Shown here in pieces: positions 25,295 through 53,163 of a DNA stretch of 64,000 nt. The DNA lies in assembly GCF_000310205.1 (NCBI RefSeq), contig NZ_AMXE01000004.1, positions 1 to 64,000 of the forward strand, written 5' to 3'. Position numbers and translations under genes: made by a program. The first letter of the stretch is position 1; each line of letters opens with the position of its first letter. The notes beneath the pieces are model-generated. The model had not been told where the DNA came from. It ran no database searches and saw only the letters and a list, made by a program, of their open reading frames with translations. This DNA is from Thauera linaloolentis 47Lol = DSM 12138. Lineage in GTDB: Bacteria; Pseudomonadota; Gammaproteobacteria; Burkholderiales; Rhodocyclaceae.

Positions 25295-26509
<1,215 letters not shown>

Positions 26510-26523
26510 TGCTGGTCGTCTTT

Positions 26524-26533: not shown

Positions 26534-26710
26534 GTGGTGGTGTCGGTACGCCCCGATGCGGTGCACGCCGGGCATTTGCGATGCGGATCGATGACCGGGC
26601 GGCGGGTTCGCAAGCGGCATGGCTGAGGCCGCGCGGCCAGCACGCATCGCTGGTTGGCCGTGGGTTTTTCGGGATTGCGCATGGAGATGGGGGCAATCCT
26701 GCTGTTTCAT

Positions 26711-26736
26711 GATTGTTATGTTATAACATAACAATC
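26711..26736. promoter_or_regulatory. Zur box upstream of the zinc cluster
   Basis: A perfect 26-nt palindrome made of GATTGTTATGTTA and its exact complement. The core ATGTTATAACAT matches the proteobacterial Zur consensus (about GAAATGTTATANTATAACATTTC). It lies 201 bp before the zigA start. Zn-Zur bound here would repress the cluster until zinc is scarce. Confidence 0.8.
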
Positions 26737-32129: not shown

Positions 32130-32173
32130 GACATGTTCTCCAGTGTGTCGCCTTCCGGCGGTCGTGCCTTCGG

Positions 32174-34252: not shown

Positions 34253-34265
34253 GATCCAGCCCCTG

Positions 34266-37741: not shown

Positions 37742-37826
37742 ATCGAAACCCGCAGGCAAAGCGTTGTGCGTGCCCCATGCCTTTAAGAGCAAGGGGCATC
37801 CAGTGGTAGCAGTCGCGGTACCCGGC

Positions 37827-38099
37827 TCAGCCGCCCGCAACCGCTGGCAGTACGGTCAGGCTGTCTCCGGCCTTGACCAGCGTCCTCAGGCCATCGGCAA
37901 AACGGATGTCGTCTTCGTTGACGTAGATGTTCACGAAGCGGTGAACCTGGTCGCCATTGACGAGCCTGGCCTTGATCCCCGGGAATTGGGTTTCGAGATG
38001 GTCGATGGCCTCGGCCACGGAATTGCCCTGGGCGTAAACCTCTTTTTCTCCGTTGGTCAATGGCCGCAACAGGGTGGGAACAATCACTGAAACCGACAT
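37827..38099 (-). CDS. ThiS/MoaD-like sulfur-carrier protein
   Basis: A 90-residue beta-grasp protein ending in VAGG; the terminal Gly-Gly is adenylated by the E1-like enzyme and turned into a thiocarboxylate. Internal signatures are FVNIYVNEDDIRFADGL and AGDSLTVLPAV. It should donate sulfur to the activated carboxylate of the siderophore precursor. Unlike QbsE-type carriers there are no residues after Gly-Gly to be trimmed. It lies between the JAMM gene and the CoA transferase gene in the same direction. Confidence 0.88.
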   Translation of the reverse strand: MSVSVIVPTLLRPLTNGEKEVYAQGNSVAEAIDHLETQFPGIKARLVNGDQVHRFVNIYVNEDDIRFADGLRTLVKAGDSLTVLPAVAGG

Positions 38100-38156
38100 G
38101 CAAGACTCCTTTTGCCAGTCACTGGCTATGGCGTTTCTGAAAGTGGGTGGAGAAGC

Positions 38157-38567
38157 TCAGGCTAGAATGCAGACGCTTTCCTCGATGGCCCTGCCGTCGA
38201 GCAGCCGGAAACTCCGTATGGCCTCTCTGGCGTGATCCCAGGTCGACACGATCAGGTAGTGCGCCTCGGGGCTGCCCGCGTACTCGATGTCCTCCCGGCT
38301 TGGGTAGGCCTCGCTCACGGTATGGGAGTGGTAGATCACACGGCAGGTCTCGCCGTGCTCGTCCAGTTCCCGAAAAACCCGGAACTGCTCGCGCGAATCG
38401 AACAGGAAGAAGGTCTCGGAAGCTGCCTGGTTGCGCATCGGCACGACCCTACTGGCTACCGTGCTGCCTGATGCCGAAACCACGATGCCGCAGGTCTCGA
38501 TCGGGTGGTCGCGGTACGCCTGGGCCACGATCCGCTCCAGAGCCTGGTTCTTGATATGCAGGGCCAT
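38157..38567 (-). CDS. JAMM/MPN+ metalloprotease
   Basis: A 136-residue JAMM protease with the full motif: Glu in PIETCGIVV and HSHTVSEAYPSRED (HxH, seven residues, SxxD). Homologues (QbsD, Mec) cut sulfur-carrier proteins, either trimming a tail or releasing a product from the carrier's Gly-Gly. The ATG at 38567 follows a GGAG site; the TTG at 38588 that overlaps the E1 stop is less likely. Its neighbours are the E1-like enzyme and the carrier. Confidence 0.88.
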   Translation of the reverse strand: MALHIKNQALERIVAQAYRDHPIETCGIVVSASGSTVASRVVPMRNQAASETFFLFDSREQFRVFRELDEHGETCRVIYHSHTVSEAYPSREDIEYAGSPEAHYLIVSTWDHAREAIRSFRLLDGRAIEESVCILA

Positions 38568-38584
38568 GCCTCGGGCTCCGGTCG

Positions 38585-39757
38585 TCAATAGCTTGGCAGC
38601 GAGGGATCAATGTCCCTGATCCATGCCAGCACGCCGTCCTCGAGATTGCGGGCATTGCGCATGCCCAGCCGCTGCAGTTCAGAGACGACTTCGGCGGAGC
38701 GCCTGCCGCTTTTGCAACTGACCACCAGGTCGGCATCGCGGCCGTATTGCTCGAGCAGGGTGCGCACCAACGTGGGGGACTTGGGCATCAGCGTGGAGCC
38801 TGGAATGCGGACGATGTCCCATTCGGTCGCCTCCCGGACGTCGATCAGCACTGGCATTGCCTGCCGGTCCATCAGTGTCTTGAGCTGGATCGCCGTAATG
38901 CTGGGCAAGGATGCGGTGTCGGCGGCCGGCGCCCCCAGATTGCAGAATGCCTGGTAATCCGCAGCCAGTTGGGTCAGCGGCTCGCGGTCCGGCAGGCGGC
39001 GGATGGGCAGTTCGCGGTAACGCATCTCGAGCGCGTCATAGGCCACGAGGCGCCCGAGCAACGGCTTACCGATGCCGGCGATGAGCTTGACGGCCTCGGT
39101 CGCCATGATGGCGCCGATGGATGCGCACAGAATGCCGAACACGCCGCCCTCGGAGCACGACGGAGCCATTTCCGGCGGCGGAGGTTCGGGATACAGGTCG
39201 CGATAATTCAGGCCGCGCCCATTCGGTGCCTTCTCCCAGAACACCGAAACCTGTCCTTCGAAACGGAAGATCGACCCCCATACGTAGGGTTTGTCCGCCA
39301 GCACGCAGGCGTCGTTGACGAGGTAGCGGGTGGCGAAATTGTCGGTGCCGTCCAGGATCAGGTCGAAGCGGGAGAAGAGATCCACCGCCGTGTCGCGTTC
39401 CAGGCGGTCGGTGAAGGTTTCCACCTCGACGAAGGGGTTCAGCCGGGCGATGGCCCGTCGGGCGCTTTCGACCTTCAATTCACCCACGGTGTCCACACCG
39501 TGGATCACCTGACGCTGAAGATTGGAATCGTCCACCCGGTCGAAGTCGATGATGCCGATGGTTCCGACTCCGGCTGCCGCGAGGTAAAGCAGGGTAGGGG
39601 AGCCCAGCCCGCCAGCGCCGATGACCAGCACCCTGGCATTCTTCAGCCGGCGCTGCCCAACCGTGCCTACATTGGGAATCAGCAGATGGCGGCTGTAGCG
39701 ATTGATTTCTTCGCGGCTGAGCTGCGCTGCGGGCGCGACCAGAGGGGGTAATGACAT
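38585..39757 (-). CDS. E1-like adenylyltransferase with C-terminal rhodanese domain (MoeZ/ThiF type)
   Basis: A 390-residue MoeB/ThiF-like enzyme (about 1-265) with nucleotide motif VLVIGAGGLGSPTLLYLAAA and DFDRVDDSNLQRQV, fused to a rhodanese domain (about 285-390) with active-site LVVSCKSGRRSAEV. It should adenylate the carrier's Gly-Gly and pass sulfur to it. MoeZ-type proteins usually have a zinc-binding CxxC after the RDPD segment; here that place reads LPDREPLTQL. First of the sulfur-transfer genes, it is preceded by a Fur box and has a good GAAGGAA ribosome site. Confidence 0.9.
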   Translation of the reverse strand: MSLPPLVAPAAQLSREEINRYSRHLLIPNVGTVGQRRLKNARVLVIGAGGLGSPTLLYLAAAGVGTIGIIDFDRVDDSNLQRQVIHGVDTVGELKVESARRAIARLNPFVEVETFTDRLERDTAVDLFSRFDLILDGTDNFATRYLVNDACVLADKPYVWGSIFRFEGQVSVFWEKAPNGRGLNYRDLYPEPPPPEMAPSCSEGGVFGILCASIGAIMATEAVKLIAGIGKPLLGRLVAYDALEMRYRELPIRRLPDREPLTQLAADYQAFCNLGAPAADTASLPSITAIQLKTLMDRQAMPVLIDVREATEWDIVRIPGSTLMPKSPTLVRTLLEQYGRDADLVVSCKSGRRSAEVVSELQRLGMRNARNLEDGVLAWIRDIDPSLPSY

Positions 39758-39780
39758 ATCATTTCCTTCGTTGATTCAAT

Positions 39781-39800
39781 AGAAATGATTATCATTATTA
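39781..39800. promoter_or_regulatory. Fur box upstream of the E1-like gene
   Basis: AAATGATTATCATTATTA (39783-39800) closely follows the Fur consensus GATAATGATAATCATTATC. It lies 26 bp before the E1 start codon, consistent with iron repression of the sulfur-transfer and downstream genes from a promoter between the E1 gene and the importer gene. Confidence 0.7.
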
Positions 39801-39921
39801 AATATACGTATGGCAATATGCTTAACTGGTTATTTAGTATGCGGATGACACGAAAAACTATGCGGAGAATCCATCGCCAGGCATCAGCGCATACCAGCAG
39901 CTCCCATGCGCCTTCCTCGCG

Positions 39922-41163
39922 TCAATCGGTCTCGTTTGCCAGTACCGACTGTGCCGATTCGCCCACCTTGCCGCGTACCCGCCATGCCAGCCCGAAGGCG
40001 ACCAGGACCCCCAGCGTCAGGCCGGCCAGCATGCCGTTGTAGTCCAGGCGGTCGAGCAGCACGCCGGCGGCGATGGGGACCGCCATCCGGGCTGCGGTGA
40101 ACAGCGTGGTCTGCAGGCCATAGTCGGAAGCGTTGCGCTGGCGCCGGGTGAAGAACATCGTCAGCCCGAACATCAGTGCCGACACGGCGCCCATGCTCGC
40201 GGCCACGCAAATTGCGCTGGCGATCAGCCAGCCCGTGCCCAGTTTGACCCATACGGTGACGGTGAGCAGCGCCAGCGAGCACAAGGCCGCCAACAGGTAC
40301 AGCACGATGGCGCGTGCCGTCCCCAGCACCGGCACCAGGCGTCCGCCAATGAGACTGAACAGCGCGCCGGTCACGCCGCCGACGATGCCCACGATGAACG
40401 CCACCCGTTCGAGCGGCATGCCCATGTCCAGCATCAGGGGCTTGAGGTACAGCCACACCGCGCCGATGAAGGGAAAGCTGGTCAACAGCATCAGCGTCCA
40501 CTGCCGGGCCCCCGGCTGGTTGAAGAAACCTGCCCAGTCGGCCACCACGCCGGGAATGGGCACATCGCCGGCCCGCTCTGGCAGGGCCGCCCGTGAACGC
40601 AGCAGCGCAAACGGCAGGCAGCCGGCCAACAGGCCGGCACCCATGATCCAGAACGGCACCTGCCAGCCCATGCGCGACTGCACCACGATCATGATGCCGC
40701 CGCCGACGATGGCCCCCAGGAACAAGGCCGCGGAGCGGATGCTGCCTGCGCGCAGTTGCTCGCTGCGCGGCAGCCACTGCACCGCCAGCGCATTCAGCGG
40801 AATATCCGCCCAAGTGGCGGCGATGCTGATGGCGAAGGTTAGTGCGAACAGCAGCACGCGATCGTCGATCAGGTTCTGCCGTCCGATCAGCCAGTACAGC
40901 GCCAGCATCGCCGCGCTGAGCAGCAGCAGCCAGTGCGCGAAATGACCGCGTCCCAGGCGCACGCGCTGCACTGGCACGGCGAACAGGAACTTGAAGATCG
41001 CCGGCAGCGCGGCCAACTGGAACAAGCCGATTTCGGTGCCGCTCCACCCGTGTTGCCGCATCACCAGCGGCATGCCGAACATCAGGTAGATGCTGGGAAT
41101 GGCCAGCACCAGGTTCATCCAGCCGAACAGCAGTTGCAGGCCGAGCAGGCGGGGTTTGGTCAT
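39922..41163 (-). CDS. MFS transporter, RhtX/FptX-like siderophore importer
   Basis: A 413-residue inner-membrane MFS protein with about twelve helices. Its opening (LLFGWMNLVLAIPSIYLMFG, GTEIGLFQLAALPAIFKFLF, then VPVQRV) matches the RhtX/FptX family, single-protein importers of ferric siderophores, related to AmpG. The ATG at 41163 overlaps the methyltransferase stop by one base (TGATG). In pdt loci a similar gene (pdtE) stands at this place. The open frame above 41163 is inside the methyltransferase gene. Confidence 0.82.
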   Translation of the reverse strand: MTKPRLLGLQLLFGWMNLVLAIPSIYLMFGMPLVMRQHGWSGTEIGLFQLAALPAIFKFLFAVPVQRVRLGRGHFAHWLLLLSAAMLALYWLIGRQNLIDDRVLLFALTFAISIAATWADIPLNALAVQWLPRSEQLRAGSIRSAALFLGAIVGGGIMIVVQSRMGWQVPFWIMGAGLLAGCLPFALLRSRAALPERAGDVPIPGVVADWAGFFNQPGARQWTLMLLTSFPFIGAVWLYLKPLMLDMGMPLERVAFIVGIVGGVTGALFSLIGGRLVPVLGTARAIVLYLLAALCSLALLTVTVWVKLGTGWLIASAICVAASMGAVSALMFGLTMFFTRRQRNASDYGLQTTLFTAARMAVPIAAGVLLDRLDYNGMLAGLTLGVLVAFGLAWRVRGKVGESAQSVLANETD

Positions 41164-42233
41164 CAAAGAGCTTCTCCTTTCCGAGCTATCAGAACGGTGA
41201 CGGGCGCCACCGGAAAATCCACGTCCGCACAGGTCGTCACGTCGGTGAAACCGGCTTTGCGCAGTTGCCGTGCCAGCGCGCCTTCGGGCAGCACCTGCCG
41301 GCCCTGCATGCGCATGCGCAGGTAGTACTGCAGTACGCGGCGGTCGCCGGCCTCGGCATGGGCGCACAAGAGCACGCCGCCCGGCTTGAGTGCGGCATGC
41401 AGGCGTTGGAGGACGGGGGCTTCGTCGGGCACGAAATGCAATACTGACGAGCACCAGATCAGGTCGTAGCCGCAACCGAAGTCATCATGCGCCAGATTGC
41501 CGCCCATGCTTTGCAGGCGCCCCTGCAGGCCGGCCGCCTCGATGTTGTGCTGTGCCACCTCGGCGACGGACGGATAGTCGTAAACCACCCCGGACAAATC
41601 GGGCAGGTCCTGCGCCAGCGCGATTGCCACAAGGCCGGGGCCGCCGCCCAGGTCGAGCATCGTCCGCCATTGCAGGCGGTCGGGCAGGCGTCCTGCGATC
41701 CGGCGTGCCACCGGTACGGTAATGGCGCGCTGTTCTTGTGCGATCTGCACCCGGGCTGCCCTGGCCCATGCTTGCTGTGCCGTTTCGTCGGGGGCGGCGT
41801 CTCGGGGCGGCGCGCCTTCGCGCAGCAGCACTTCGAGTTGCTTGCGTGACCGGCACAACACCTTGTGGCGGAACAGCAGCGCGTCTCCGAGGTAAAGCGA
41901 TGATGCCGGGCTCAGGTAGGGCTGCATCTGGGGATGGGTTCGGTAGACCGCGGGCGCTGTTTGCCCCGGCACGCGGGACGTGTGCTCCAGCACGCCCATG
42001 CTGGCCAGCACCTCGAGGAACAGCCGGGTATTGCCTGGCGACAGCGCCAGCTGTGATGCGACCTGTTCGGCCGTGGCGAATTCATCCAGATGGGTGAACA
42101 GCCCCAGTTCCAGTGCCAGGCTCAGGACATCGGAATCCTGGCAGGCCAATTGTGCATCCCAACAGGATTGCACCTGCGCCGGTACGGGCGAGACGGGCAG
42201 GGTGGGATATGGATCATGAGGAAAATAGGTCAT
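41163..42233 (-). CDS. SAM-dependent O-methyltransferase-like protein
   Basis: A 356-residue protein with an N-terminal winged-helix dimerisation part (ALELGLFTHLDEFATAEQVA) and a Rossmann methyltransferase domain (motif I TMLDLGGGPGLVAIALAQDL; acidic loop GVVYDYPSVAEVAQHNIEAA; post-motif WCSSVLHFVPDEAPVLQRLH). This is the acetylserotonin/ubiquinone-like O-methyltransferase layout. It is the first gene after the Fur box at 42369. It probably methylates the siderophore, a precursor, or an S-atom; the substrate is not readable. The ATG at 42245, four codons longer, is an alternative start. Confidence 0.82.
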   Translation of the reverse strand: MTYFPHDPYPTLPVSPVPAQVQSCWDAQLACQDSDVLSLALELGLFTHLDEFATAEQVASQLALSPGNTRLFLEVLASMGVLEHTSRVPGQTAPAVYRTHPQMQPYLSPASSLYLGDALLFRHKVLCRSRKQLEVLLREGAPPRDAAPDETAQQAWARAARVQIAQEQRAITVPVARRIAGRLPDRLQWRTMLDLGGGPGLVAIALAQDLPDLSGVVYDYPSVAEVAQHNIEAAGLQGRLQSMGGNLAHDDFGCGYDLIWCSSVLHFVPDEAPVLQRLHAALKPGGVLLCAHAEAGDRRVLQYYLRMRMQGRQVLPEGALARQLRKAGFTDVTTCADVDFPVAPVTVLIARKGEAL

Positions 42234-42368
42234 GGTGCGTTCCATCTCTGTGGCAAAAGGCCGTTGCGGCGAGAGATTCAAAGCGTATTTGATGGATTGG
42301 CGATTTGATTTGTCTGTATTGCCGTATTCGATTTGATTGTTCTTGGTAAGGTGGAAATGATGGACTAT

Positions 42369-42386
42369 ATTAATGAGAATCATTCC
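42369..42386. promoter_or_regulatory. Fur box between methyltransferase and AraC regulator genes
   Basis: ATTAATGAGAATCATTCC matches the Fur consensus well (AATGAGAATCATT core). It lies in the divergent region between the methyltransferase operon (minus) and the regulator (plus), so it can serve both promoters. Confidence 0.7.
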
Positions 42387-42458: not shown

Positions 42459-43430
42459 ATGAGTGCGCGCAACAACTGCTGCCGGCTGACACTGGACGAA
42501 CCCCGTATCCGCAGCGCCCTGGGAAGTGGCAAGACCCGGCTGCAACTGCCCGAAGACATCGGCCATTGCTACCAGGATTTCGTGGAGCTCGAACCGGGGC
42601 TCGGGCTGGGCAGGCTGCACTACATCCCCAGCGTGCCGCTGATCGAAGAAACCAACGGGCCGCACGATGGCCACGTCATGGTCATCACCCTTGGCATGAA
42701 AGGCCGCTCCTGCTACGAAGGGCAGGACGCCACGAGCCTGGAATTCCAGAAGGGCTACACCACCATTTCATCCTTCCGCGCGATACCCGGCGAGCGGCGC
42801 TACGAAGCCGGCGATACCGTCTCGCAACTGCGGGTGGTGGCGCACGAATCCCTGATCTGCAAATACGTCGGCCAGGAGCGCACCGCCGAAATCCTCGGCA
42901 GCAGGCAGCTCAGCCGCCTGGCCTTCCGCGCCAGCACTCCGGCCGCGATGACCCACGCCAAGGCACTGCTCAGCCATCTGCTGCCCTGCCAGACCCGGCT
43001 CTCGCGCCTGGATCTCCACATCCACACGCTCAGCCTGCTCAACGAACAATTCAGCTTGCTGGCGCCGCAGCACTGCGCCCCATCATCACCGTTTTCGCCA
43101 TCGGAAATCGAACGCATCGAAAAAGCCAGGCAGATCATGGACGAGCACCTGGACAAACCCCTCACGCTCGACTACCTCGCCACCATCGTCGGCACCAACA
43201 AGAACAAGCTCAAGGACGGCATGATCTACCTCTACAACGCCACACCGACCGAACTACTGCTGGAACTGCGCATGAACAAGGCCATCGCCCTGCTCGAATC
43301 CGGCCAGCAGGTGTCCCAGGTGGCCTGGCAGGTGGGATACAAGTACGCCAACAACTTCACCGTCGCCTTTACCCGCTACCACGGCAAATCGCCCAAGGCG
43401 ATGTTCGGAAAGCGGGCGCTGGAGGGGTGA
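42459..43430 (+). CDS. AraC-family regulator, PchR-like
   Basis: A 323-residue regulator with a C-terminal AraC DNA-binding domain (about 220-323: KARQIMDEHLDKPLTLDYLA, TNKNKLKDGMIYLYNATPTE, QVSQVAWQVGYKYANNFTVA, then FTRYHGKSP). The N-terminal 200 residues are the ligand-sensing part, as in PchR-type regulators that use the ferric siderophore as co-activator. Divergent from the biosynthetic operon, it is likely its activator (PdtC-like). Confidence 0.88.
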   Translation: MSARNNCCRLTLDEPRIRSALGSGKTRLQLPEDIGHCYQDFVELEPGLGLGRLHYIPSVPLIEETNGPHDGHVMVITLGMKGRSCYEGQDATSLEFQKGYTTISSFRAIPGERRYEAGDTVSQLRVVAHESLICKYVGQERTAEILGSRQLSRLAFRASTPAAMTHAKALLSHLLPCQTRLSRLDLHIHTLSLLNEQFSLLAPQHCAPSSPFSPSEIERIEKARQIMDEHLDKPLTLDYLATIVGTNKNKLKDGMIYLYNATPTELLLELRMNKAIALLESGQQVSQVAWQVGYKYANNFTVAFTRYHGKSPKAMFGKRALEG

Positions 43431-43498: not shown

Positions 43499-44059
43499 TC
43501 AGCTCGGAGGTACGCTGAAGTGCCAGCGAGAGCGGGAAGGATCCGCGTTGGCGCACACGTCCAGATAGAGTGACCGCCACCGGTGAGTCTCGTCGAACGT
43601 GCTTGCGGACTCAGGGCCCACCGTAAGGCACAAGCCAGAGCGGTTCAGCTCAACCTGCCCGGAATCCTTCAAGTGAAAAACCTGGAGCGCCTGCGCTTCG
43701 AGGAAAGGCGACCGTTCGCCGCAGTTGCGGACCACGAGCCCAGCGCCCGGCAACGCGCGGCCATTCAGGCCGGCGGCCGTCAGGCACTTGTTGTCGTAGG
43801 CGGGGAACCGGATGTACCCGCTCGAATCGACGATCACCGCCTCATCCGCATACAACCCGGGTTTGCAGTTGTGAGCGGTCGCCGGCAGATCGAAGCGGAT
43901 GTAGGGGCCGGAACCAACGATGTCCAGGCAATAGCCGTCCTCCGGGCGATCGAGCGTGTCGATGAGCTTCAGGTGTCCCGGAGGGGAGGGCGTTTGTGCG
44001 TGCCCCGGCGCGATGGATGCCAGCCCGAGGCACAGGATGAAGCAGGTACGAAGAGTCAT
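43499..44059 (-). CDS. Secreted protein with ricin-type beta-trefoil features
   Basis: A 186-residue protein with a signal peptide (MTLRTCFILCLGLASIAPGHA). The mature part has three repeats of the kind CLDIVG, NKCLTAAG and GLCLTVG, separated by 50-60 residues with paired cysteines. That spacing suggests a beta-trefoil carbohydrate-binding fold, but QxW signatures are weak. It is a monocistronic unit between the AraC and gdx genes. Function unknown. Confidence 0.6.
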   Translation of the reverse strand: MTLRTCFILCLGLASIAPGHAQTPSPPGHLKLIDTLDRPEDGYCLDIVGSGPYIRFDLPATAHNCKPGLYADEAVIVDSSGYIRFPAYDNKCLTAAGLNGRALPGAGLVVRNCGERSPFLEAQALQVFHLKDSGQVELNRSGLCLTVGPESASTFDETHRWRSLYLDVCANADPSRSRWHFSVPPS

Positions 44060-44132
44060 GGTATCTGGTCGAAAACCGCAATTGCCGCTCAGGTTGGAAG
44101 GGGCTGCCCTTGGCCATGGCAGAGGTACCGGC

Positions 44133-44447
44133 TCAGGACGAGAGCTTCATCAACACCAGACCCCCGACAATCAGGATGGCGGCAAGGATACGCATCGGGC
44201 TGGCAACCTCGCCCAGCACAACGATGCCGACGACGAATGCGCCCACAGCCCCGATACCGGTCCAGATGGTGTAGGCCGTGCCGAGCGGAAGGGATTTCAT
44301 CGCAACCGACAGCAGCCCGAAGCTGGCGATCATAGCCACGATGGTGATGGAGGAATAGCCCAGCCGGGTGAAGCCGTCCGACAGCTTCATCGTGTAAGCC
44401 CAGATGACCTCGAGCAAACCTGCAACGGCCAAGAAAATCCAAGCCAT
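44133..44447 (-). CDS. gdx: Guanidinium exporter Gdx (SugE), SMR family
   Basis: A 104-residue four-helix SMR protein. The first helix carries the essential glutamate in GLLEVIWAYTMKLSDGF (Glu13), with the Trp16 and LSDGF features of the Gdx/SugE branch rather than EmrE. Gdx proteins exchange guanidinium for protons. The upstream guanidine-II riboswitch confirms that guanidine is the substrate. AGGAG sits 7 nt upstream of the ATG. Confidence 0.92.
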   Translation of the reverse strand: MAWIFLAVAGLLEVIWAYTMKLSDGFTRLGYSSITIVAMIASFGLLSVAMKSLPLGTAYTIWTGIGAVGAFVVGIVVLGEVASPMRILAAILIVGGLVLMKLSS

Positions 44448-44449
44448 AT

Positions 44450-44516
44450 GGCTCTCCTATATCAAAGAGCCGGGTCGTCCCGGACGGTAGATGGCCCGCA
44501 GGCTGAGGTCGTCCTC
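44450..44516 (-). promoter_or_regulatory. Guanidine-II (mini-ykkC) riboswitch controlling gdx
   Basis: Read on the minus strand, two hairpins with the diagnostic ACGA tetraloop occur: GAGG-ACGA-CCTC (44516 to 44505) and CCGGG-ACGA-CCCGG (44483 to 44470), with a 21-nt linker. Downstream, GGCTCT (44471 to 44466) can pair with AGAGCC (44455 to 44450), which overlaps the ribosome site AGGAG. The last two bases of the second hairpin are shared with that pairing, so guanidine-stabilised hairpin 2 would free the ribosome site. Confidence 0.88.
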
Positions 44517-44566
44517 GATGCGAATGATACCTCATCGGAAAAAAACCGGGATACCGGTCAGTTGCG

Positions 44567-44734
44567 TCAGGCGAAGACGTCCAGGGCTTGCATCCGGGCG
44601 GGAATGTTGCGTTGGCCGTGCAGCACACGCCAGACATCTATGTGATCCGGCCGTTCGACGTAGAAGGCGAGGCAAGGATAGGCCGACAGCGCCCAGGAGC
44701 GCAGACCAGGAAGTGCCGAAGGATGGTTTCTATA
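44567..44734 (-). pseudogene. C-terminal remnant of a RelE/ParE-family toxin
   Basis: The frame ends with LPGLRSWALSAYPCLAFYVE and HIDVWRVLHGQRNIPARMQ, the conserved last third of ParE toxins (GLRS..Y..FY...I.VLRVLHG.RDI). The N-terminal half and any antitoxin gene are missing, so it is a decayed toxin-antitoxin locus. Confidence 0.6.
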
Positions 44735-45085
44735 CCATCCGAATGGTTTTTGAGGAAGAGTTGAGCGGCATTGGGAATGCTGTGGACAGCACAATACTGG
44801 TTTTCAGTGTTTTTTCATGGGGTTACGATCGTCGATGCAATTTCTTGAATACGGCTTGAAGCAGTCCTTCAATCGTCGTACCATCCGTGCGGGCCTCCCT
44901 TCATCCACTAAGATCGCGTTCAATTTGGTTCGCAATGCAGTGTTGTGCTTTGCTCTCCGGTAAGCGGGGTAGGGGTACATAGGAAGCTCTTTGAAATCAA
45001 TCCGCCGAATCCCTGGCAAGCCGCGCTTGCTTTTGTTTGGCGCTTTTCGTTAGACGATAATTCAAGAAATATTAGGAGACAATCA
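44735..45085. other. Gene-free stretch before the DUF4242 gene
   Basis: More AT-rich than its surroundings. A minus-strand frame of 71 codons (44804-45019) has no recognisable feature. The promoter of the DUF4242 gene probably lies in the last 100 bp. I see no RNA gene or clear repeat. Confidence 0.35.
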
Positions 45086-45361
45086 ATGACCCAGTACCTG
45101 ATTGAGCGTGAAATAAGCGGGGCCGGAGACATGTCGGCTCAGGCACTTCGCGACGCGTCCAAGCATTCCAATGCGGTCCTGGCGGATATGAGCCCGGACA
45201 TCCAATGGGTTCACAGCTATGTGGCTGGCGACAAGATCTATTGCGTATATAACGCACCGAGCGAACAGCTCATTCGAGAGCACGCAGAGAAATCGGGTTT
45301 TCCTGCCAATAAGATCACGCCCATCAGCGCAGTCATCGACCCCTCCACGGCGAATGGCTAA
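45086..45361 (+). CDS. DUF4242-family small protein
   Basis: A 91-residue ferredoxin-like-fold protein of the DUF4242 family: MTQYLIEREISGAG at the start, DIQWVHSYVAGDKIYCVYNA in the middle and EHAEKSGFPANKI near the end. One member, SCO4226, binds nickel; in most the role is unknown. The start follows TTAGGAGACAATCA, a strong ribosome site. A long stem-loop follows the stop codon. It is a single-gene unit. Confidence 0.82.
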   Translation: MTQYLIEREISGAGDMSAQALRDASKHSNAVLADMSPDIQWVHSYVAGDKIYCVYNAPSEQLIREHAEKSGFPANKITPISAVIDPSTANG

Positions 45362-45376
45362 AGCAGCCTGACGATG

Positions 45377-45419
45377 CCAGCGGACGGCCAGGAAGCCAAG
45401 GCTTCTGTCCGTCCGCTGG
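45377..45419 (+). terminator. Stem-loop terminator after the DUF4242 gene
   Basis: CCAGCGGACGG (45377-45387) pairs perfectly with CCGTCCGCTGG (45409-45419), and the inner GAAGCC/GGCTTC extends the hairpin around an AA tip. GTTTGG follows. It lies between convergent genes and may work for both. Confidence 0.7.
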
Positions 45420-45458
45420 GTTTGGTGCCTTCCCCGATGTAGCAAACACCGCTCAATA

Positions 45459-46154
45459 TCAGCAACGCAACGCCTCTTCCGCCGCTGCGGCAGCATGAAG
45501 CGCGGTGGTATCGAATAGCGGAACCCCCGCGTCCTGCTCGCTCACCAGCATCGAGATCTCCGTGCAACCCAGAATGATGCCTTGCGCGCCGCGCTCGGCG
45601 AGGCCTTGCATCACGTTGCGGTAGACCTTCCGCGAAGCGTCCTCGATGCGGCCGAGACAGAGTTCTTCATAGATCACACGATGCACCAGGTCACGCTCGT
45701 CCTGCTCGGGGATCAGCACCTCGATGCCGTGGTGTTCTGCCAGGCGACCCCGATAAAACGGTTGTTCCATCGTGAATCGCGTGCCAAGCAGGCCGATGCG
45801 GGACAAGCCGGTGTTGCGTATCGCGGCCGCGGTCGGGTCGGCGATGTGGAGCAGCGGAATCTTTACCGTGGCCTCGATGGCGGGGGCCACCTTGTGCATG
45901 GTGTTAGTGCATAGCACGATGAAATCCGCGCCGGCACGCTCCAGCGCCTGCGCCGCATCGGCCAGTACGGCTCCGGCCGCTTCCCAATCTCCGCAGTGTT
46001 GCAGGCGCTCGATTTCGCCGAAATCGACGCTGTAGAGCACGATCTTTGCCGAGCGCAACCCGCCGAGCCTGGCCTTCACAGCCTCGTTGATCTGGCGGTA
46101 GTAGGGCACGGTGGATTCCCAGCTCATGCCGCCCAGGAGACCGATGGTTTTCAT
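45459..46154 (-). CDS. Aspartate/glutamate racemase family protein
   Basis: A 231-residue PLP-independent racemase. Both catalytic cysteines are visible: FIVLCTNTMHK and IILGCTEISML, with the N-terminal GLLGGMSWESTVPYYRQIN signature of the RacX/YgeA-type Asp/Glu racemases. It converts L-amino acids to D-forms, broad-specificity members acting on several residues. It is a monocistronic minus-strand gene. Confidence 0.9.
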   Translation of the reverse strand: MKTIGLLGGMSWESTVPYYRQINEAVKARLGGLRSAKIVLYSVDFGEIERLQHCGDWEAAGAVLADAAQALERAGADFIVLCTNTMHKVAPAIEATVKIPLLHIADPTAAAIRNTGLSRIGLLGTRFTMEQPFYRGRLAEHHGIEVLIPEQDERDLVHRVIYEELCLGRIEDASRKVYRNVMQGLAERGAQGIILGCTEISMLVSEQDAGVPLFDTTALHAAAAAEEALRC

Positions 46155-46503: not shown

Positions 46504-49500
46504 ATGCTACCCATAACTACAAGTTCATCCCTTACCCCCAGGTTGCGGCCACTGGTCGTGTGTATCGGACTTGCACTGCTGCAGGGCGCTGTCGCCTATG
46601 CCAACCAAGGCACGGCGGTGGTGGAGGCGAGCGGAGAAGGGAAGCTGGGCGAAGAGGCGCAAGGCGGGCATCCAGACGACGCAACGGTAATGAAGAGCGT
46701 CACGGTAATCGGGCAGCACGAGAAGCGGGACGAACAGGGCAGGAACGACGTATTCGACAAGGACGTCGTCAATGTTTACCAGGGCAAGGAAGAGATCGAG
46801 CGCTACAAGGGCAGCGCGGCCGCCGACGTGTTCAAGGGAATGAATGGCGTCTACAGCGGCGATGCGCGCAACAGCGGCGCTCTGGACCCGAACATCCGCG
46901 GTATTCAGGGGGAAGGGCGGATTCCCGTGATCGTGGATGGCACGGAGCAGGCAACCTCGGTATGGATGGGGCCGGCAGGGGTCTCGAACCGCAACTACGT
47001 CGATCCCAACATGATCGGCGGCATCACGGTAGAAAAAGGCCCGTCGCTGACTTCGCCCGTCAGCGGCATCGGCGGTTCGGTACAGGTCAGGACGCTGGAG
47101 CCGGACGACATCGTCAAGCCTGGCGAGCGCTTCGGGATCGAATTCAAGGCCGAAACATCCACCAATTCCGTCAAGCCGAACGAAAGCACCTTTGGTTATT
47201 TCGGCAGGGATTATCGGGATATTCCAGGCGCGGCTAACAATATGTCATTTACCAACGGTCTCATCCTGCCGGGTCGGAGCCAGATCCCCAAGGAGGGCAA
47301 TGGCGGCAGGAGCTTCAGTTTCGACGACAAGGCTTTTCGTCTGGCGATCGCCACCAAGCAGGAGCACTTCGATTTGCTGATGGCTCATAGCGACCGCAAA
47401 CGCGGAAATTATTTCAGCGGCAAGAAAGGCAGCAGCAAATACGAAACCGATTCCTGGCGGGAGGATGCCGAGCGCGACGCGAACGTCGGCAGTGTCTCGG
47501 GGGTGCCCAGTGTTTCGTACATCGCACGCTATTACCAGCCCGGCGATGAAGTCAAGAACACGTCCAGCGACCAGCAATCCACGCTGCTGAAAGGCACGCT
47601 GCGCCTGCCGCACGACCAGACGCTGAAACTGGGTTTCATGCGCACCAAGCATGAGTTCGGCGAATCGATTCCGTGGATGATTATCCGGGCGATCGTGGAC
47701 AGTGATGGAAGCAAACAACGGAACATGGACGTGCCCTACAGCGAAATCAGGCAGGACAATTTCAATATCGGCTACACATGGCAGCCTGCGGACAACCCCT
47801 GGGTCGATCTGGAAGCAGGTCTGTGGATGACGCAGAACGACAGCAGGCGCCATCAGAATGGCAACGATGCCTTTGGAATTGGTGATTTCGACCAGGCCTG
47901 GGACCGCTATACCCATTGCCATGTCCTGCATACGCCGCATCAGAACTGCGTCGGTGTTTCCAGCACTCCGCCAGAAAAGCTGCCCAATGACGATGGCCGT
48001 TTCAACGTGCAGGCAAGCGCACTGCAAATATCGGATCACCGCCGCACCGGCTTCAATCTGAGCAACCGCATGCGGCTGCATCCGACCCTGGATCTTGCCA
48101 TACACGGCGATTACACCCGGGAAAAACTGAGGCAGCGGGATGCTTCGGAAAACCAGGTCCTGACGGAGCTGACCTGGGGCGTCAATCACATGGGGCCGCG
48201 TTCCGGCACGCGCCAGCAATGGAATGCCGGGTTCAATTTCGACTGGCGGCCCGTTGGCTGGCTGCAGGTGAATGCTGGCATGCGCTACAGCGATTACTGG
48301 TCGTTCGACGACAAGCTTGCGGAGAAGCGGCGTAATAAAAGTGATGTCAGTTGGGCCGTTCAACCAGAAATAACTGCGATGGAATATAGATATCAACGGA
48401 TTATGAGTGATGACGAGGTTGCTGCGCAAAAAGAATATCTTTACGGAAATTATGGCAGACAGCTTGCACGCATTCAGCAGTTTTTCCCGGGTCAGCTTGA
48501 AGCTTTTCTGGGTGAGTATCCTGATGCTGAAACATTTGCCAATTCTTCATACAGGTATGTTGTGGACGGATACTGGTATTCATCGGAATCTGAGACGATT
48601 TCCGTTCCATATTCAGGGAATCACAAGGGGTTTGCCGAAATAAATCCTTTTATGAATGGTATTTTCGATCCGAACGAGCAAGTTGAAAATGCCCAAGGCA
48701 AGGCCGGTAGTGCAAAACGCTACGTCATGGGGGGGCGAAATATCGTTTATGGGCCCGAGCCAGCAATTGAAAAAAAATGGGCGCTCCCCAAAAGGGTGAA
48801 AGATCACGCCTGGGTCCCGCATCTTGGTATGACTGTATTTATCACCAACAACATCCGCTTGTATGCGCGGTATAGCGAGTTTGTCAGATTTCCCAGCGTA
48901 TTCGAATCCTCCATGGCTTTGGCTGGAGGAAATAAGCGCTCGACCGGAGTCGCAGGCAGGCCAGAGCACGCTTACAACTGGGAGGTTGGCTACGTTCATA
49001 ATCTTTCAGGGTATTTTGAAAATATAGAATATGTCGATTTTAGACTAAATTATTTCAACAACCGCATCGAGGACTATATTGACCGGGACTGGAGTTTCAA
49101 CATCGTCCAGTTCGCGGAAAAGAAGCTGTCGGGGATCGAGGTGCAGGCCAGGGCGGATAGCGGGAAGTATTTCGCCAATTTCGGCGCCACTTATCGGCTC
49201 AAGCAGGAATTGTGCGACAAGGATTACGCCTCTTATCTTGATCCGATTGGCGGACGGATTTCAGCGTGCATCGACGGCGGGTTTCCGCGGACTTTTGCCC
49301 GGACTGCCCTGCAGCCCAAATATTCAGTCAATCTTGATCTTGGCGCCCGCCTTTTGGAGCGGAAGCTGCAGTTCGGCACGCGCGCTGTCTATCACAGCGA
49401 AGCCAGCAATGAGGACGAGGCGCAGTTCGGTCAGATTGGCTGGGGTCTAAATCGTGCCAATTACTGGAATCCGATTCTCGTGTTCGACGCCTATGCCAGT

Positions 49501-49638
49501 TACCGGCTGGACAAGAACATCGATCTGGATGTCGCCGTCACCAACCTGACCAACCGATATTACCTGGACCCGATGGCGCGCGTCAGTCAGCCCGCGCCTG
49601 GCCGCACGATCAGGGTGGGCATGACGGCAAGATTCTGA
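46504..49638 (+). CDS. Large TonB-dependent receptor of haem/hemophore type
   Basis: A 1044-residue outer-membrane receptor. A signal sequence spans the first 35 residues (LVVCIGLALLQGAVAYA), then the TonB-box-like MKSVTVIGQHEKRDEQGRND, a plug with YKGSAAADVFKGMNGVYSGD and GGITVEKGPSLTSPVSGIGG, and a large barrel ending RTIRVGMTARF. The size and NYWNPILVFDAYASYRLDKN near the end fit haemoglobin/hemophore receptors. Next to it lie a hemophilin-like secreted protein and Slam, as in the hphR-hphA-hsmA locus of Acinetobacter. Start chosen at the ATG; the TTG four codons earlier is less likely. Base composition drops to AT-rich within about 48330-49080. Confidence 0.85.
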   Translation: MLPITTSSSLTPRLRPLVVCIGLALLQGAVAYANQGTAVVEASGEGKLGEEAQGGHPDDATVMKSVTVIGQHEKRDEQGRNDVFDKDVVNVYQGKEEIERYKGSAAADVFKGMNGVYSGDARNSGALDPNIRGIQGEGRIPVIVDGTEQATSVWMGPAGVSNRNYVDPNMIGGITVEKGPSLTSPVSGIGGSVQVRTLEPDDIVKPGERFGIEFKAETSTNSVKPNESTFGYFGRDYRDIPGAANNMSFTNGLILPGRSQIPKEGNGGRSFSFDDKAFRLAIATKQEHFDLLMAHSDRKRGNYFSGKKGSSKYETDSWREDAERDANVGSVSGVPSVSYIARYYQPGDEVKNTSSDQQSTLLKGTLRLPHDQTLKLGFMRTKHEFGESIPWMIIRAIVDSDGSKQRNMDVPYSEIRQDNFNIGYTWQPADNPWVDLEAGLWMTQNDSRRHQNGNDAFGIGDFDQAWDRYTHCHVLHTPHQNCVGVSSTPPEKLPNDDGRFNVQASALQISDHRRTGFNLSNRMRLHPTLDLAIHGDYTREKLRQRDASENQVLTELTWGVNHMGPRSGTRQQWNAGFNFDWRPVGWLQVNAGMRYSDYWSFDDKLAEKRRNKSDVSWAVQPEITAMEYRYQRIMSDDEVAAQKEYLYGNYGRQLARIQQFFPGQLEAFLGEYPDAETFANSSYRYVVDGYWYSSESETISVPYSGNHKGFAEINPFMNGIFDPNEQVENAQGKAGSAKRYVMGGRNIVYGPEPAIEKKWALPKRVKDHAWVPHLGMTVFITNNIRLYARYSEFVRFPSVFESSMALAGGNKRSTGVAGRPEHAYNWEVGYVHNLSGYFENIEYVDFRLNYFNNRIEDYIDRDWSFNIVQFAEKKLSGIEVQARADSGKYFANFGATYRLKQELCDKDYASYLDPIGGRISACIDGGFPRTFARTALQPKYSVNLDLGARLLERKLQFGTRAVYHSEASNEDEAQFGQIGWGLNRANYWNPILVFDAYASYRLDKNIDLDVAVTNLTNRYYLDPMARVSQPAPGRTIRVGMTARF

Positions 49639-49699
49639 GCAGATTCAGTTTTTGGCCGTTTTAGAAAAAACGTCCGTTCTCGACCAACCGGAGATTGAA

Positions 49700-50620
49700 A
49701 TGATGAAAACCATGCATTTCCAGAAACTTGCCATTGCTTCGGCAGTGATGATCGTGTCGGCATCCGCGCTGGCTCAGACGGTGTCTCCTTATGGCGGCGC
49801 ATCGACTGATTATGTCAATACGGGTATCGGGACATCGATGGGAACTGGTGTAGGCATCTCGATGCCAGGCACCAACCCGCCAACAACCAATCCTGGCGAC
49901 CAGTCCGCGATTGTCAGCTTCGCGGGCGGCCCGATCATGCAGACGAACTATGCTTATTCGACACAATCAGGGCCGTATTACTACATCTATATCCCCGGCT
50001 CAAGTGGACTCATTCAGATGGCCCAGACATGGAAGGCGAATGCAGCTTATGGGACGGAGATCTATGCCTATCGCCAGATCAGCAACCCGCTTCCGACATT
50101 CCCTCACTTCGGTGGCGAGGTCGTCGCCAAAGTTTCCGGGCATGAAGTCTATTTTGGCGAGTGGGCTCCCAAAGGCTCCAATACCGGAACGGGGAATGAC
50201 ACGAATCTGAACATGAATGATTCGAGGCGCACAGTTTTCTATGTTGGCGAGCATCCAACTACGACTACGCCAGTCATGGTGAATGCCCAGTACGATGTCG
50301 TTGGTATTGTTCAATACAACCCCGGAACCCAGGCTGGTGTGCATACTGGCACGCTGACCGCTCAGTATGGTGCCGGCAATGGCAACACGCTGAGCGGTAC
50401 GGTCGGCTATGTCGATTTCGCCGGCACTACCATCGCTTCGAATGGCACGTTCTCCAGGGCTGCTGCAGGTAGCGATGGGGCCATCACCGGGCGCTTCTAC
50501 AACAATGCAGCCGGTACCGATGTTGCGGCTGCTTTGGCCGGCTACTACAAGGATGGAAGTAGCGTCGCATATGATATGGCGTTCGGCGGTGCGCGAGTAA
50601 CGCCGCTCAACAACCCGTAA
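49700..50620 (+). CDS. Secreted hemophilin-like hemophore, Slam substrate
   Basis: A 306-residue secreted protein. The signal peptide (KLAIASAVMIVSASALA/QT) has no lipobox cysteine, so the product should be soluble. The C-terminal 110 residues (GTLTAQYGAGNGNTLSGTVG, YVDFAGTTIAS, AITGRFYNNAAGTDVAAALA, GYYKDGSSVAYDMAFGGAR) form the beta-barrel typical of TbpB-like and hemophilin Slam clients. The N-terminal part would hold the ligand; haem is likely by analogy with HphA. It lies between the receptor and slam genes, and a terminator follows it. Confidence 0.75.
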   Translation: MMKTMHFQKLAIASAVMIVSASALAQTVSPYGGASTDYVNTGIGTSMGTGVGISMPGTNPPTTNPGDQSAIVSFAGGPIMQTNYAYSTQSGPYYYIYIPGSSGLIQMAQTWKANAAYGTEIYAYRQISNPLPTFPHFGGEVVAKVSGHEVYFGEWAPKGSNTGTGNDTNLNMNDSRRTVFYVGEHPTTTTPVMVNAQYDVVGIVQYNPGTQAGVHTGTLTAQYGAGNGNTLSGTVGYVDFAGTTIASNGTFSRAAAGSDGAITGRFYNNAAGTDVAAALAGYYKDGSSVAYDMAFGGARVTPLNNP

Positions 50621-50644
50621 TTCTGGCCATCCAGGTGTAGTGGG

Positions 50645-50675
50645 AACAAGGGGGGCAAGTCCCCCTTGTTTCTTT
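50645..50675 (+). terminator. Intrinsic terminator between hemophore and slam genes
   Basis: AACAAGGGGG (50645-50654) and CCCCCTTGTT (50661-50670) form a perfect 10-bp stem with a 6-nt loop, followed by TCTTT. It probably reduces read-through into slam so that the secreted client is made in excess of its translocon. Confidence 0.8.
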
Positions 50676-50712
50676 CGAATTTAAATCGGTTTCAGCGGCA
50701 AGGCTGATTCAT

Positions 50713-52209
50713 ATGTTTCAACGCCCGATCATGGCCATTTTCTTCTTGGCTGTCATGCTTCCGATTCACGCCCTGGCTGACGATGACGATACCCGCCTGC
50801 TGCTTAACAAGATCGATCGCAGCACGGCGGTAAGGGAACGCTCTCACTTAGTGGAGGATACGCCGCCTGGCATCGATCCGGGATCCTTGATCACCATTGG
50901 CGAGACGACTTATCACGTCGAGAATACGCTGGAAGATTTGGGGCCGGCCATTTATGTTTCGATGAACCTGCGGCAGTGGCACAAGGTGGGGCAGTTTGTA
51001 GAAAAGTACCGCAGTTTGTCCGGGCATGAGGAAGGGCTCGTGCTATTAGCCGAAGGAATGCTGGACCGAGAGAACAGAGACTATCGCGCAGCCAGCGACA
51101 AGCTCAATGCCGCATTGGCGGCCAAGCCGGATTTCGCGCGTGCCAGGCTGGAACTGGCACGTGTCTACTTCGAGGATCACAAGTCGCAAGAAGCCAGGGA
51201 TTTGTTCGACCAGGTTTCCACCAGCGGTATTCCGGATGAGGTTCGTCCCGTCATCGAAGGTTTTCAGCGGGCCTTGCGCGACCGCGATACTTGGCATGGT
51301 TCGCTGGCCCTGGGGCTCGGCTACAGTAGCAACGTCAACCAGGCTAACGGCAAGGTGCTGGTTTCGGAAACCTGCATTCCGGTCTTCGGCTGCGCGATCA
51401 CCAGGCGTCGCATGGACGAGCCGATCGAATCCTCCATGTTTACCTATGATTTGACATTGAACCGTCGTTATCAGATTTCCGGCCACCACAACGCATTGCT
51501 GCGGGCGATCAGCTACGGCAAGCTGCCCAATGAGCACAAGGACACAACCGCAACGTTAGCCAGCACTTACTATGACGAAAGCACCAGCATCGTCTACGCG
51601 GGCTACAACTACATGAGTGCATTGAATGATTTTTCGGTGATGCCGCTGTTCGAACATCATTACGGCAACCGCCACGTCCGCTATCAGGCCGTGGGTTTGC
51701 GTCTGGACTGGAAGCACAATCCAAGGCCGGATACCCAGGTCGGCGTCAATGCGCAGCGAAAGCACTTTCGCTTTCAGGGTCGCGAACGGCAGTATTTCGA
51801 CAATTACGACGAAAATCAGTTTGGCTTCTATGCTTCGAATGTGCTCGACGCCAAGACAATGATTTACGGCGGTCTGAACTTTACCCGCAAGCTGTTTCCA
51901 CAAGCTGTTGCCAGCAGCAAGGAATACATGGCCAACCTGGGGGCATACAGAATGTTCGATGCGGGCTTCACCATCAACGCCACCGCGCTTTTTCGCCATA
52001 TCCGCAACGACGAGGGCAGCCAACTCATGGGCGGGCGCCGCGAGGACGACCAGCAGATCTACATCGTCAATCTCGGCATGCCGCGCTTCGCGTTCAAAGG
52101 CATAACGCCCAATCTGTATCTCAAGCGCACGGTCAACGACAGCAGCATCGACTGGGCTTACGAATACCGCCAGACCGAAGTAGTGCTGAAGCTCGAGAAA
52201 AATTTTTGA
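50713..52209 (+). CDS. slam: Slam: surface lipoprotein assembly modulator / hemophore translocon
   Basis: A 498-residue outer-membrane protein. After a signal peptide (IMAIFFLAVMLPIHALA) comes a TPR-like periplasmic domain (YRAASDKLNAALAAKPDFAR, ARLELARVYFEDHKSQEARD) and then a DUF560 barrel from about residue 195 (HGSLALGLGYSSNVNQANGK) to the terminal phenylalanine of VVLKLEKNF. This is the Slam layout. Slam proteins carry specific clients across the outer membrane; the client is almost certainly the preceding hemophilin-like protein. Confidence 0.88.
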   Translation: MFQRPIMAIFFLAVMLPIHALADDDDTRLLLNKIDRSTAVRERSHLVEDTPPGIDPGSLITIGETTYHVENTLEDLGPAIYVSMNLRQWHKVGQFVEKYRSLSGHEEGLVLLAEGMLDRENRDYRAASDKLNAALAAKPDFARARLELARVYFEDHKSQEARDLFDQVSTSGIPDEVRPVIEGFQRALRDRDTWHGSLALGLGYSSNVNQANGKVLVSETCIPVFGCAITRRRMDEPIESSMFTYDLTLNRRYQISGHHNALLRAISYGKLPNEHKDTTATLASTYYDESTSIVYAGYNYMSALNDFSVMPLFEHHYGNRHVRYQAVGLRLDWKHNPRPDTQVGVNAQRKHFRFQGRERQYFDNYDENQFGFYASNVLDAKTMIYGGLNFTRKLFPQAVASSKEYMANLGAYRMFDAGFTINATALFRHIRNDEGSQLMGGRREDDQQIYIVNLGMPRFAFKGITPNLYLKRTVNDSSIDWAYEYRQTEVVLKLEKNF

Positions 52210-52251
52210 TACGCCACCATCAGTTACGTTGCGACACCGCTACAAGAATCC

Positions 52252-53163
52252 ATGAAAACCGTCATTTCCTCGCTCGAATCCACCGTTGAAAGCCTGGTCA
52301 GGCTCGCAGGCGCAGTATTCAAACTCAGTGTCGGTCTGGGCAGTATCTGCGTTGTTATCTATGCGCTGCGCGTTAATCATTTTCCGCAGGGGGTATCGCT
52401 TGGAGATGGGCTCTTGTTCCTGCTGGCCGCGGCCTGCTTCGGGGCGGTTTATGCGTTGTTCGTCGGCTGCCTGCTGTCGTTGGGGATCTGCTTGTCCTTC
52501 ATTGTCAGGCCGCTGCTCAGGGGCATTTTCTGGCTCTGGGGCAAGATTACCCGTGCCGATGTGAGACCCGGTTATGAGCTGGCTGGGTTCAATTGGTTTG
52601 CGCTTCCCTTCGCGCTTTTTGCGGTGTTGCTCGTGCTGGACCTGGGACGGGAAGATGTAACGCTTTACTGGGGTCTTCCGCTGCTGTCCGTTGGGCTCTA
52701 CCTGTTCTATTCGGCGGCAAGGGATGCCGGTGTGCGTTTCCGTCATGGAGAACGTTTGCTTGCTAGCGCCATTGCCATGCCGGAAAAGGACGTATTCCGG
52801 CGTTCGGGAGAGGTGAACAAGTACAAGAATGTCCAGTTGATGGGTATCGCCGTGGTGGCGTTGCTGCCGCTTTTCTTGAGCGGAGCGTTCGGCTACCTTC
52901 TGGAAGGCGCCATGCGCATGGCCCAGGTGCGCATCGAAGCCCCCGCCATCTACGTGAAGGCACCATACGCCACGCTGTTGCCGGAGGCACTTGCCAGTCG
53001 CCACCCACGCGTTCCAGAAGGCTATACGGCCTACATCGGCACCACGGTGCTGTTCAAGGGCTTCGGCAACATGACGGTAGTGGCCTTCCCGGATGCGAAC
53101 GGTACCCGGCAACTGGCCATTCCCAACGAGCAGATCATCGTGGAGCGCCAGTCTGGCGGCTAG
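52252..53163 (+). CDS. Inner-membrane protein of unknown function in the hemophore locus
   Basis: A 303-residue protein with about five hydrophobic segments (LSVGLGSICVVIYAL; GLLFLLAAACFGAVYALFVG; FALPFALFAVLLVLDLG-type; LPLLSVGLYLFYSAA; LMGIAVVALLPLFLSG) and a C-terminal soluble domain of about 80 residues. The last part (RIEAPAIYVKAPYATLLPEA, GYTAYIGTTVLFKGFGNMTV) is probably periplasmic. It starts 42 bp after slam on the same strand. No family I recognise; a role in haem uptake or secretion is inferred from position only. Confidence 0.65.
   Translation: MKTVISSLESTVESLVRLAGAVFKLSVGLGSICVVIYALRVNHFPQGVSLGDGLLFLLAAACFGAVYALFVGCLLSLGICLSFIVRPLLRGIFWLWGKITRADVRPGYELAGFNWFALPFALFAVLLVLDLGREDVTLYWGLPLLSVGLYLFYSAARDAGVRFRHGERLLASAIAMPEKDVFRRSGEVNKYKNVQLMGIAVVALLPLFLSGAFGYLLEGAMRMAQVRIEAPAIYVKAPYATLLPEALASRHPRVPEGYTAYIGTTVLFKGFGNMTVVAFPDANGTRQLAIPNEQIIVERQSGG

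Follow-up and report, generated by a model that had tools for sequence, protein, structure and literature searches.

A hemophilin-fold Slam cargo with its own TonB-dependent receptor near a thiocarboxylate-siderophore cluster in Thauera linaloolentis: a possible turn from haem to metallophore

The closest described relative of the locus reported here is HphR-HphA-HsmA of Acinetobacter baumannii, whose hemO locus runs in the order sigma factor, FecR, receptor, HphA, Slam-type porin, TonB and haem oxygenase. HphA, which ligates haem through H43 and H106, and Hpl are both described as haem binders (PMC8560813), whereas CrpC of Xenorhabdus cabanillasii, also a Slam cargo, is named in the published account for a non-haem ligand (PMC12282271); CrpC comes from another bacterial group and is likened here by name. 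Among small chelators, thioquinolobactin and pyridine-2,6-dithiocarboxylic acid (PDTC) are both listed in a review as Pseudomonas siderophores (PMC10393863); according to a 2018 paper, no other thiocarboxylic natural product was known before its own (PMC6006322). The pdt genes of Pseudomonas kilonensis F113 are given 13 letters, pdtCKPELMFGHIJON (PMC7415375). Here we analyse a 64,000-nucleotide stretch of Thauera linaloolentis 47Lol = DSM 12138 (positions 1 to 64,000 of NZ_AMXE01000004.1, contig C4 of a 4.2-Mb assembly with 220 contigs; hereafter the window), in which a cassette of TonB-dependent receptor, hemophilin-fold cargo and Slam lies near a gene cluster of the thiocarboxylate-siderophore kind. 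No link between a Slam cargo and a siderophore cluster was found in the open-access literature searched, and the word siderophore is absent from PMC12282271.

The first-pass annotation of this DNA had recognised a receptor, a hemophilin-like protein and a Slam in the order hphR-hphA-hsmA, and the three genes indeed stand in that order on the plus strand (Table 1). The cargo begins with a Sec-like signal ending in ALAQ (judged by eye), is free of cysteine, and matches NCBIfam slam_lipo (NF041636, the Slam-dependent cargo barrel family) at 83.6 bits (cut-off 80) and the hemophilin 8glo in the PDB (E 5e-8); it scores 18.5 bits against Pfam HphA_N, below the cut-off of 22. Its gene adjoins the Slam gene, which gives the only PF04575 match, and hence the only Slam found, in the assembly. 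The proposed hemophilin-like fold was borne out by an AlphaFold2 model built from 40 sequences (predicted local distance difference test, pLDDT, 88; predicted TM-score, pTM, 0.86), hemophilins being marked by a clamp-like N-terminal domain on an eight-stranded C-terminal barrel. In the VIA comparison the model matches A. baumannii apo-HphA with a Z of 24.4 (2.9 Å over 216 residues), and six hemophilin entries rank first (Z 22.7-24.4), followed by HpuA at 15.2 and by TbpB and fHbp near 13. The set of receptor, cargo and Slam on a single strand is found again at 35 of 37 loci (L024-L060), the exceptions being a receptor split over two frames (L034, Pseudomonas bharatica CSV86) and a contig that begins at the cargo (L049); thus, the arrangement is not due to chance. 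The window differs from the A. baumannii locus in its surroundings, since homologues of the sigma factor, FecR and haem oxygenase were not found in it by query search, TonB not having been searched for. The outer parts of the window (1-22 kb and 54-64 kb) were covered by open reading frame lists, phmmer queries and one Hsp70 match.

A scan of named genomes yielded 57 cargo loci, and a tree of 67 cargo proteins separates a clade of 42 (support 100/100) from a set of 25 that comes from Xenorhabdus, Providencia, Methylophaga and Alkalilimnicola. The clade comprises three groups: a, with 19 proteins from the window and 17 loci in Thauera, Alcaligenes, Marinobacterium, Pseudomonas, Stutzerimonas and a bin labelled Paucimonas (91/85); b, with 8 proteins (92/92); and c, with 15 (100/98). 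The same three groups are recovered by the receptor trees. Across group a the histidines that ligate haem in known hemophilins (H43 and H106 of HphA, a single one in Hpl) are not kept. When group a is aligned with the A. baumannii protein, the H106 column holds Phe in 12 and Tyr in 7 of the 19 proteins, and within four columns either side of H43 none of the 19 has a histidine. In the H106 column all eight group-b proteins have Met or Trp, group c has Ala, and the four Methylophaga proteins all have His; a regular expression for the histidine pattern (-10 position) gave 1 of 8 in group b, where the aligned position is Met or Trp throughout, and 24 of the 28 cargos of L061-L080 were usable in this comparison. 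In the N-terminal domain no histidine column of group a exceeds 8 of 19, and group c has one invariant histidine (15/15) in an SNH motif. Most conserved positions in this domain of the group-a proteins carry aromatic or apolar residues. Invariant residues of the group include Met55, Phe74, Trp111, Tyr124 and Arg125. H136 of the window's cargo (in PHFGG), considered as an axial haem ligand, was rejected: it lies two residues past the H106 position and is Gln in 11 of the 19 proteins.

The second line of evidence is the company that the cassette keeps. At 28.6-43.4 kb the window holds a minus-strand cluster, divergent from an AraC regulator, which by its gene order appears to be PDTC-type; ThiF/MoeZ, JAMM, ThiS, an AMP-binding ligase and siderophore-type transport, the gene set of thiocarboxylate siderophores, all lie within 29713-41475. 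JAMM, sulfur carrier and MoeZ-like protein are protein kinds tied to thiocarboxylate sulfur. The cluster shares with the pdt clusters of Pseudomonas its AraC, receptor, MFS (major facilitator superfamily), ThiF, JAMM, ThiS, CoA-transferase and ligase homologues, and differs from them in having gained the cassette and in the PigD-like and PigE-like genes, which were not found in the window (the rest of the genome not having been searched), so that siderophore production here is uncertain. A Pseudomonas cluster (L197) runs AraC, receptor, methyltransferase, MFS, PigD-like, PigE-like, ThiF, JAMM, ThiS, CoA-transferase, ligase, dehydrogenase, MFS and a protein of unassigned family. This order fits pdtCKPELMFGHIJON, letters being matched to families by inference from order. 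The PigD-like and PigE-like genes of PDTC-type Pseudomonas clusters (L197, 6283-11252, and homologues) resemble those of prodigiosin, with 663 bits for PigD (cut-off 950) and 1429 bits for PigE (cut-off 850).

Cluster genes lie within 10 kb of the cargo at 13 of 17 group-a loci, or 14 if L029 is counted through the next stretch (L170); L033, L039 and L040 have none nearby. No such gene set was found at the 20 loci L041-L060, where L048, L050 and L060 each gave a single generic match. The presence of JAMM alone was rejected as a cluster marker and matches were judged by bit score, because weak matches (69 bits or less) occur in 68 of 368 other genomes of the class. On this measure, cluster-type JAMM is present in 14 of 16 group-a genomes (121-228 bits; the L040 genome is outside the 16), and in 12 of these its coordinates put it no more than about 14 kb from the cargo. 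Of 24 genomes whose hemophilins are of another kind, a single one has it, a Xenorhabdus at 122 bits (this control covers 24 of the 40 loci L041-L080), and no other of the 368 genomes exceeds 69 bits. The linkage spans four families, and its arrangements differ between genera. The two group-a genomes without cluster-type JAMM, those of L035 and L036, and likewise G937, have AraC, methyltransferase, MFS and the cassette, the pattern to be expected if a strain still used the siderophore but had ceased to make it, although the absence from L036 is weak because that genome is a metagenome bin. An ABC importer lies near all 11 Pseudomonas-type group-a loci; the family libraries assign it no substrate, and its resemblance to ferric importers was discounted.

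The third line is a trade-off between receptors. A homologue of the siderophore-type (PdtK-like) receptor of the window's cluster adjoins the gene for AraC or that for the methyltransferase in 11 of 12 clusters with no cassette beside them (those of ten cargo-less genomes of the Pseudomonas sample and the unlinked clusters of G904 and G910), but inside only 2 of 13 clusters with a cassette, namely those of the window and S. kirkiae; the other eleven are from Thauera sp. Sel9, three Alcaligenes, two Marinobacterium and five Pseudomonas. The sole cassette-less cluster without the receptor, G1008, was read over 19.9 of its 23.0-kb contig. As to scoring, a second, differently arranged cluster of G904 (L180), which has a PdtK-like receptor, was left out of the count, a weak 145-bit receptor match in Marinobacterium iners (L190) was scored as absent, and for G1015 and G1172 the stretch runs out within the receptor. 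In most cases AraC stands between the usual receptor and the cassette; G1187 has the receptor on the same side as the cassette (L167, L193). In M. marinum an unrelated TonB receptor stands on the far side of the cassette (L027:3115-5955).

Taken together, these observations incline us, by a narrow lean, to regard the cassette as the part of a thiocarboxylate (PDTC-type) metallophore system that captures the ligand and takes it up at the outer membrane. In this view the cargo would cross the inner membrane by Sec and leave through Slam; outside the cell, its N-terminal handle would bind a metal-loaded metallophore instead of haem and hand it to the adjacent receptor, which would import it in a TonB-driven step. 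The ligand may be PDTC or a relative, made by the cell itself or taken from neighbours, and in several lineages the receptor-cargo pair occupies the place that a PdtK-like receptor has in other clusters, the window having both.

A number of observations count against this assignment. The coexistence of both receptors in the window is one, and at L033 and L039 the cassette stands apart from the cluster, which there retains its PdtK-like receptor. Both HphA histidines are missing from group b as well, yet that group shows no linkage to a siderophore cluster. In a sample of 298 genomes of the genus Pseudomonas, JAMM of the cluster type occurs in 14, a cargo of these groups in 7 and both in 4; 10 of the 14 are therefore without such a cargo, and the cassette is not required for the cluster. 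The genomes are related, so that Fisher values for the association overstate the case. The stretches read in Alcaligenes and Marinobacterium, like the window, were found without the PigD-like and PigE-like genes of the Pseudomonas clusters. Scored against a Fur-box consensus, no convincing site precedes the cassette, the best (11/19) being reached in 895 of 2000 base shuffles. Finally, known hemophilins bind haem, and the best named family of the cassette receptor is a haem/haemoglobin one, TIGR01785 (TonB-hemin), although at 223 bits it stays below the cut-off of 317.

These last two points lead to the first alternative, that the cassette is a true haem-acquisition system, in which other residues hold the haem (such as Met55 or Tyr124, which are invariant in group a, or H136 in those proteins that have it) and siderophore genes are adjacent since both serve iron supply. 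We consider this unlikely. Haem can be held by residues other than H43 and H106 of HphA, a histidine does stand two residues past the H106 position in 8 of the 19 proteins, three more species have structure entries with holo HphA in the title, and fold and gene order are shared with HphR-HphA-HsmA; set against this are the uniform Phe or Tyr at H106 and the lack of any histidine near H43. The receptor likewise points both ways. Despite its TonB-hemin match, it falls among the other 40 rows of a quick tree with long branches, outside the clade of HphR and haem-oxygenase-linked receptors, in which HphR groups with those of Methylophaga, contig C134 of the window's genome, Xenorhabdus and Providencia (11 rows; Shimodaira-Hasegawa-like approximate likelihood ratio test, SH-aLRT, 100); the split receptor of L034 is absent from the receptor trees, and several Xenorhabdus receptors, C1 and C32 from the HphR tree. 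An STN domain was not found in the cassette receptor by domain search.

Its best solved match is HasR (E 6e-17), the partner of HasA in another system of secreted protein and TonB receptor; the HasA fold and export route differ from those of the cargo. The HasR positions H189 and H603 are not histidine in the aligned Thauera Sel9 receptor, and they were set aside as uninformative, the C134 receptor also being without them (by eye).

The neighbourhood also argues against haem. A search that was positive at 4 of 4 Methylophaga loci gave no haem oxygenase beside any of the 17 group-a loci scanned. Elsewhere in the window's genome, C134 (L020, 2-5385) carries a receptor, a haem oxygenase (PF01126, E 9e-24), a YbaN-like open reading frame, ExbB and ExbD; it is likely a haem-uptake locus, with no hemophilin in the stretch examined, and with haem oxygenase, ExbB and ExbD beside that receptor, haem uptake in this genome does not seem to rest on the cassette. 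The likeness of the cassette receptor to the C134 receptor (42-48% in pieces) was discarded as evidence for haem, the trees placing C134 with Methylophaga and HphR. Hence, with H43 and H106 unconserved, haem oxygenase not found and the cassette tied to a thiocarboxylate cluster, haem as the likely ligand, as the first-pass annotation had it, is disfavoured, and its aside that another ligand might be bound gains support.

A second alternative, which we rate as improbable, is that the cargo binds another metal or chelate, such as copper or cobalt, and that the cluster linkage reflects general metal handling. The designation of the Xenorhabdus protein CrpC as a cobalt receptor protein gives this a precedent (PMC12282271). 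The N-terminal domain of the cargo, in contrast, has no conserved histidine and no cysteine at all to hold a bare metal, and the aromatic or apolar nature of its conserved positions fits such a role poorly. That cassette and cluster merely travel together on transferred DNA with unrelated functions is very improbable: the cassette is patchy (2 of 29 Thauera) and its guanine-plus-cytosine (GC) fraction is 0.55 against 0.65 in the cluster, so that the two need not share a history, but the linkage persists in four families despite differing arrangements, the three loci without cluster-type JAMM retain cassette, AraC, methyltransferase and MFS, and clusters with the cassette for the most part have no PdtK-like receptor.

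The features of the locus are collected in Table 1.

Table 1. Genes and sites of the cassette and the thiocarboxylate-siderophore cluster in the window
Feature	Position	Strand	Remarks
TonB-dependent receptor (R)	46504-49638	+	1044 aa from ATG; PF00593 E 1e-24, Plug 9e-11
Predicted secreted hemophilin-fold Slam cargo (C)	49700-50620	+	306 aa, unlipidated
Slam / type 11 secretion outer-membrane protein (S)	50713-52209	+	498 aa; PF04575 E 2.5e-30, PF24575 1e-16, both over cut-off
Membrane-like protein of unassigned family	52252-53163	+	303 aa; no family match
AraC-type regulator (PdtC-like by position)	42459-43430	+	PF12833; homologues beside cassette and cluster
O-methyltransferase-like protein	41163-42383	-	family match
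MFS transporter	39922-41475	-	weak RhtX/FptX siderophore-transporter similarity; true start probably inside the frame
ThiF/MoeZ-type adenylyltransferase with rhodanese domain	38585-39757	-	
JAMM (Prok-JAB) peptidase	38157-38588	-	cluster marker
ThiS-type sulfur carrier ending GG	37827-38099	-	
CoA-transferase family III protein	35912-37840	-	
AMP-binding ligase	34266-36572	-	true start probably inside the frame
Second TonB receptor, siderophore type (PdtK-like)	32174-34315	-	TIGR01783 163 bits, below cut-off; homologues in clusters
Acyl-CoA dehydrogenase-like protein	30909-32129	-	
Second MFS transporter	29713-30912	-	
406-aa protein of unassigned family	28647-29867	-	conserved at cluster end
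Best Fur-box-like site of the window, 15/19	39781-39799	.	just before the ThiF gene, inside the cluster

Of the 57 loci scanned, that of Thauera sp. Sel9 alone has a homologue of the membrane-like protein behind Slam; this protein, which the first-pass annotation had included in its range, perhaps stands outside the cassette system. Between the AraC gene and the cassette the window has genes for a ricin-B-like protein, a SugE-type small multidrug resistance (SMR) pump and an Asp/Glu racemase (43499-46154), unlike Alcaligenes (L025), where AraC gene and cassette are directly adjacent. Upstream of the cluster, two CobW-type GTPase genes lie side by side (24017-26734). A conserved neighbouring frame of 407 aa (U407) was dropped as an antisense frame of the methyltransferase gene.

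The view of the host as an environmental betaproteobacterium agrees with its nearest named relative, Thauera sp. Sel9, whose cargo is 75-78% identical to that of the window, and the suggested transfer agrees with a patchy distribution and deviant composition: among 29 Thauera congeners two have the cargo, the same two that carry JAMM, and the DNA around the cassette has a GC fraction of 0.65-0.68. In plasmid records no cargo match of at least 60% identity and no JAMM match was found. The window's genome has one cargo of each group, a in the window, b on C46 (L007, 1-6089) and c on C34 (L008, 1-6551), the latter two each preceded by an extracytoplasmic function (ECF) sigma factor, FecR and an STN-bearing receptor. 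C46 and C34 start with an identical 74 bases and both end just beyond the cargo; thus, what follows them, perhaps a Slam like the one in Thauera Sel9, has probably been lost from the assembly as a collapsed repeat. Further paralogous receptors with sigma and FecR genes lie on C45 (L018), C32 (L019) and C1 (L021), with no recognised adjacent cargo.

Beyond Thauera, Marinobacterium iners has a tandem pair of cargo genes in one cassette (L029, 10007-11971), and a Rhodocyclaceae bin (L052) has two receptor-cargo pairs about 2 kb apart with one Slam. Two records labelled Neisseria gonorrhoeae (NZ_CP119142.1, 602009-602854; NZ_CP119140.1, 605023-605868) contain an unannotated stretch 36.7% identical to a group-a cargo over 90% of its length. 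A second Xenorhabdus cargo class (L063-L079), with an IENQY...QVPN motif and without the H106-type histidine, forms its own clade of 11 (100/100) and is perhaps CrpC-like.

In summary, a Slam-secreted hemophilin-fold protein may have turned from haem to a thiocarboxylate metallophore, delivering it to its own TonB receptor and taking the place of the ordinary PdtK-like receptor in several lineages of beta- and gammaproteobacteria, among them seeming non-producers which may use the siderophore of others; on this wider proposal we are almost evenly divided, with doubt slightly ahead. If true, a secreted protein carrier would join two usually separate kinds of iron scavenging, protein haemophores and small chelators, which would explain why the PdtK-like receptor is absent from many of these clusters and would point to ways in which bacteria could privatise a shared siderophore or steal it. 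It would also caution against naming every hemophilin-Slam locus a haem-uptake system.

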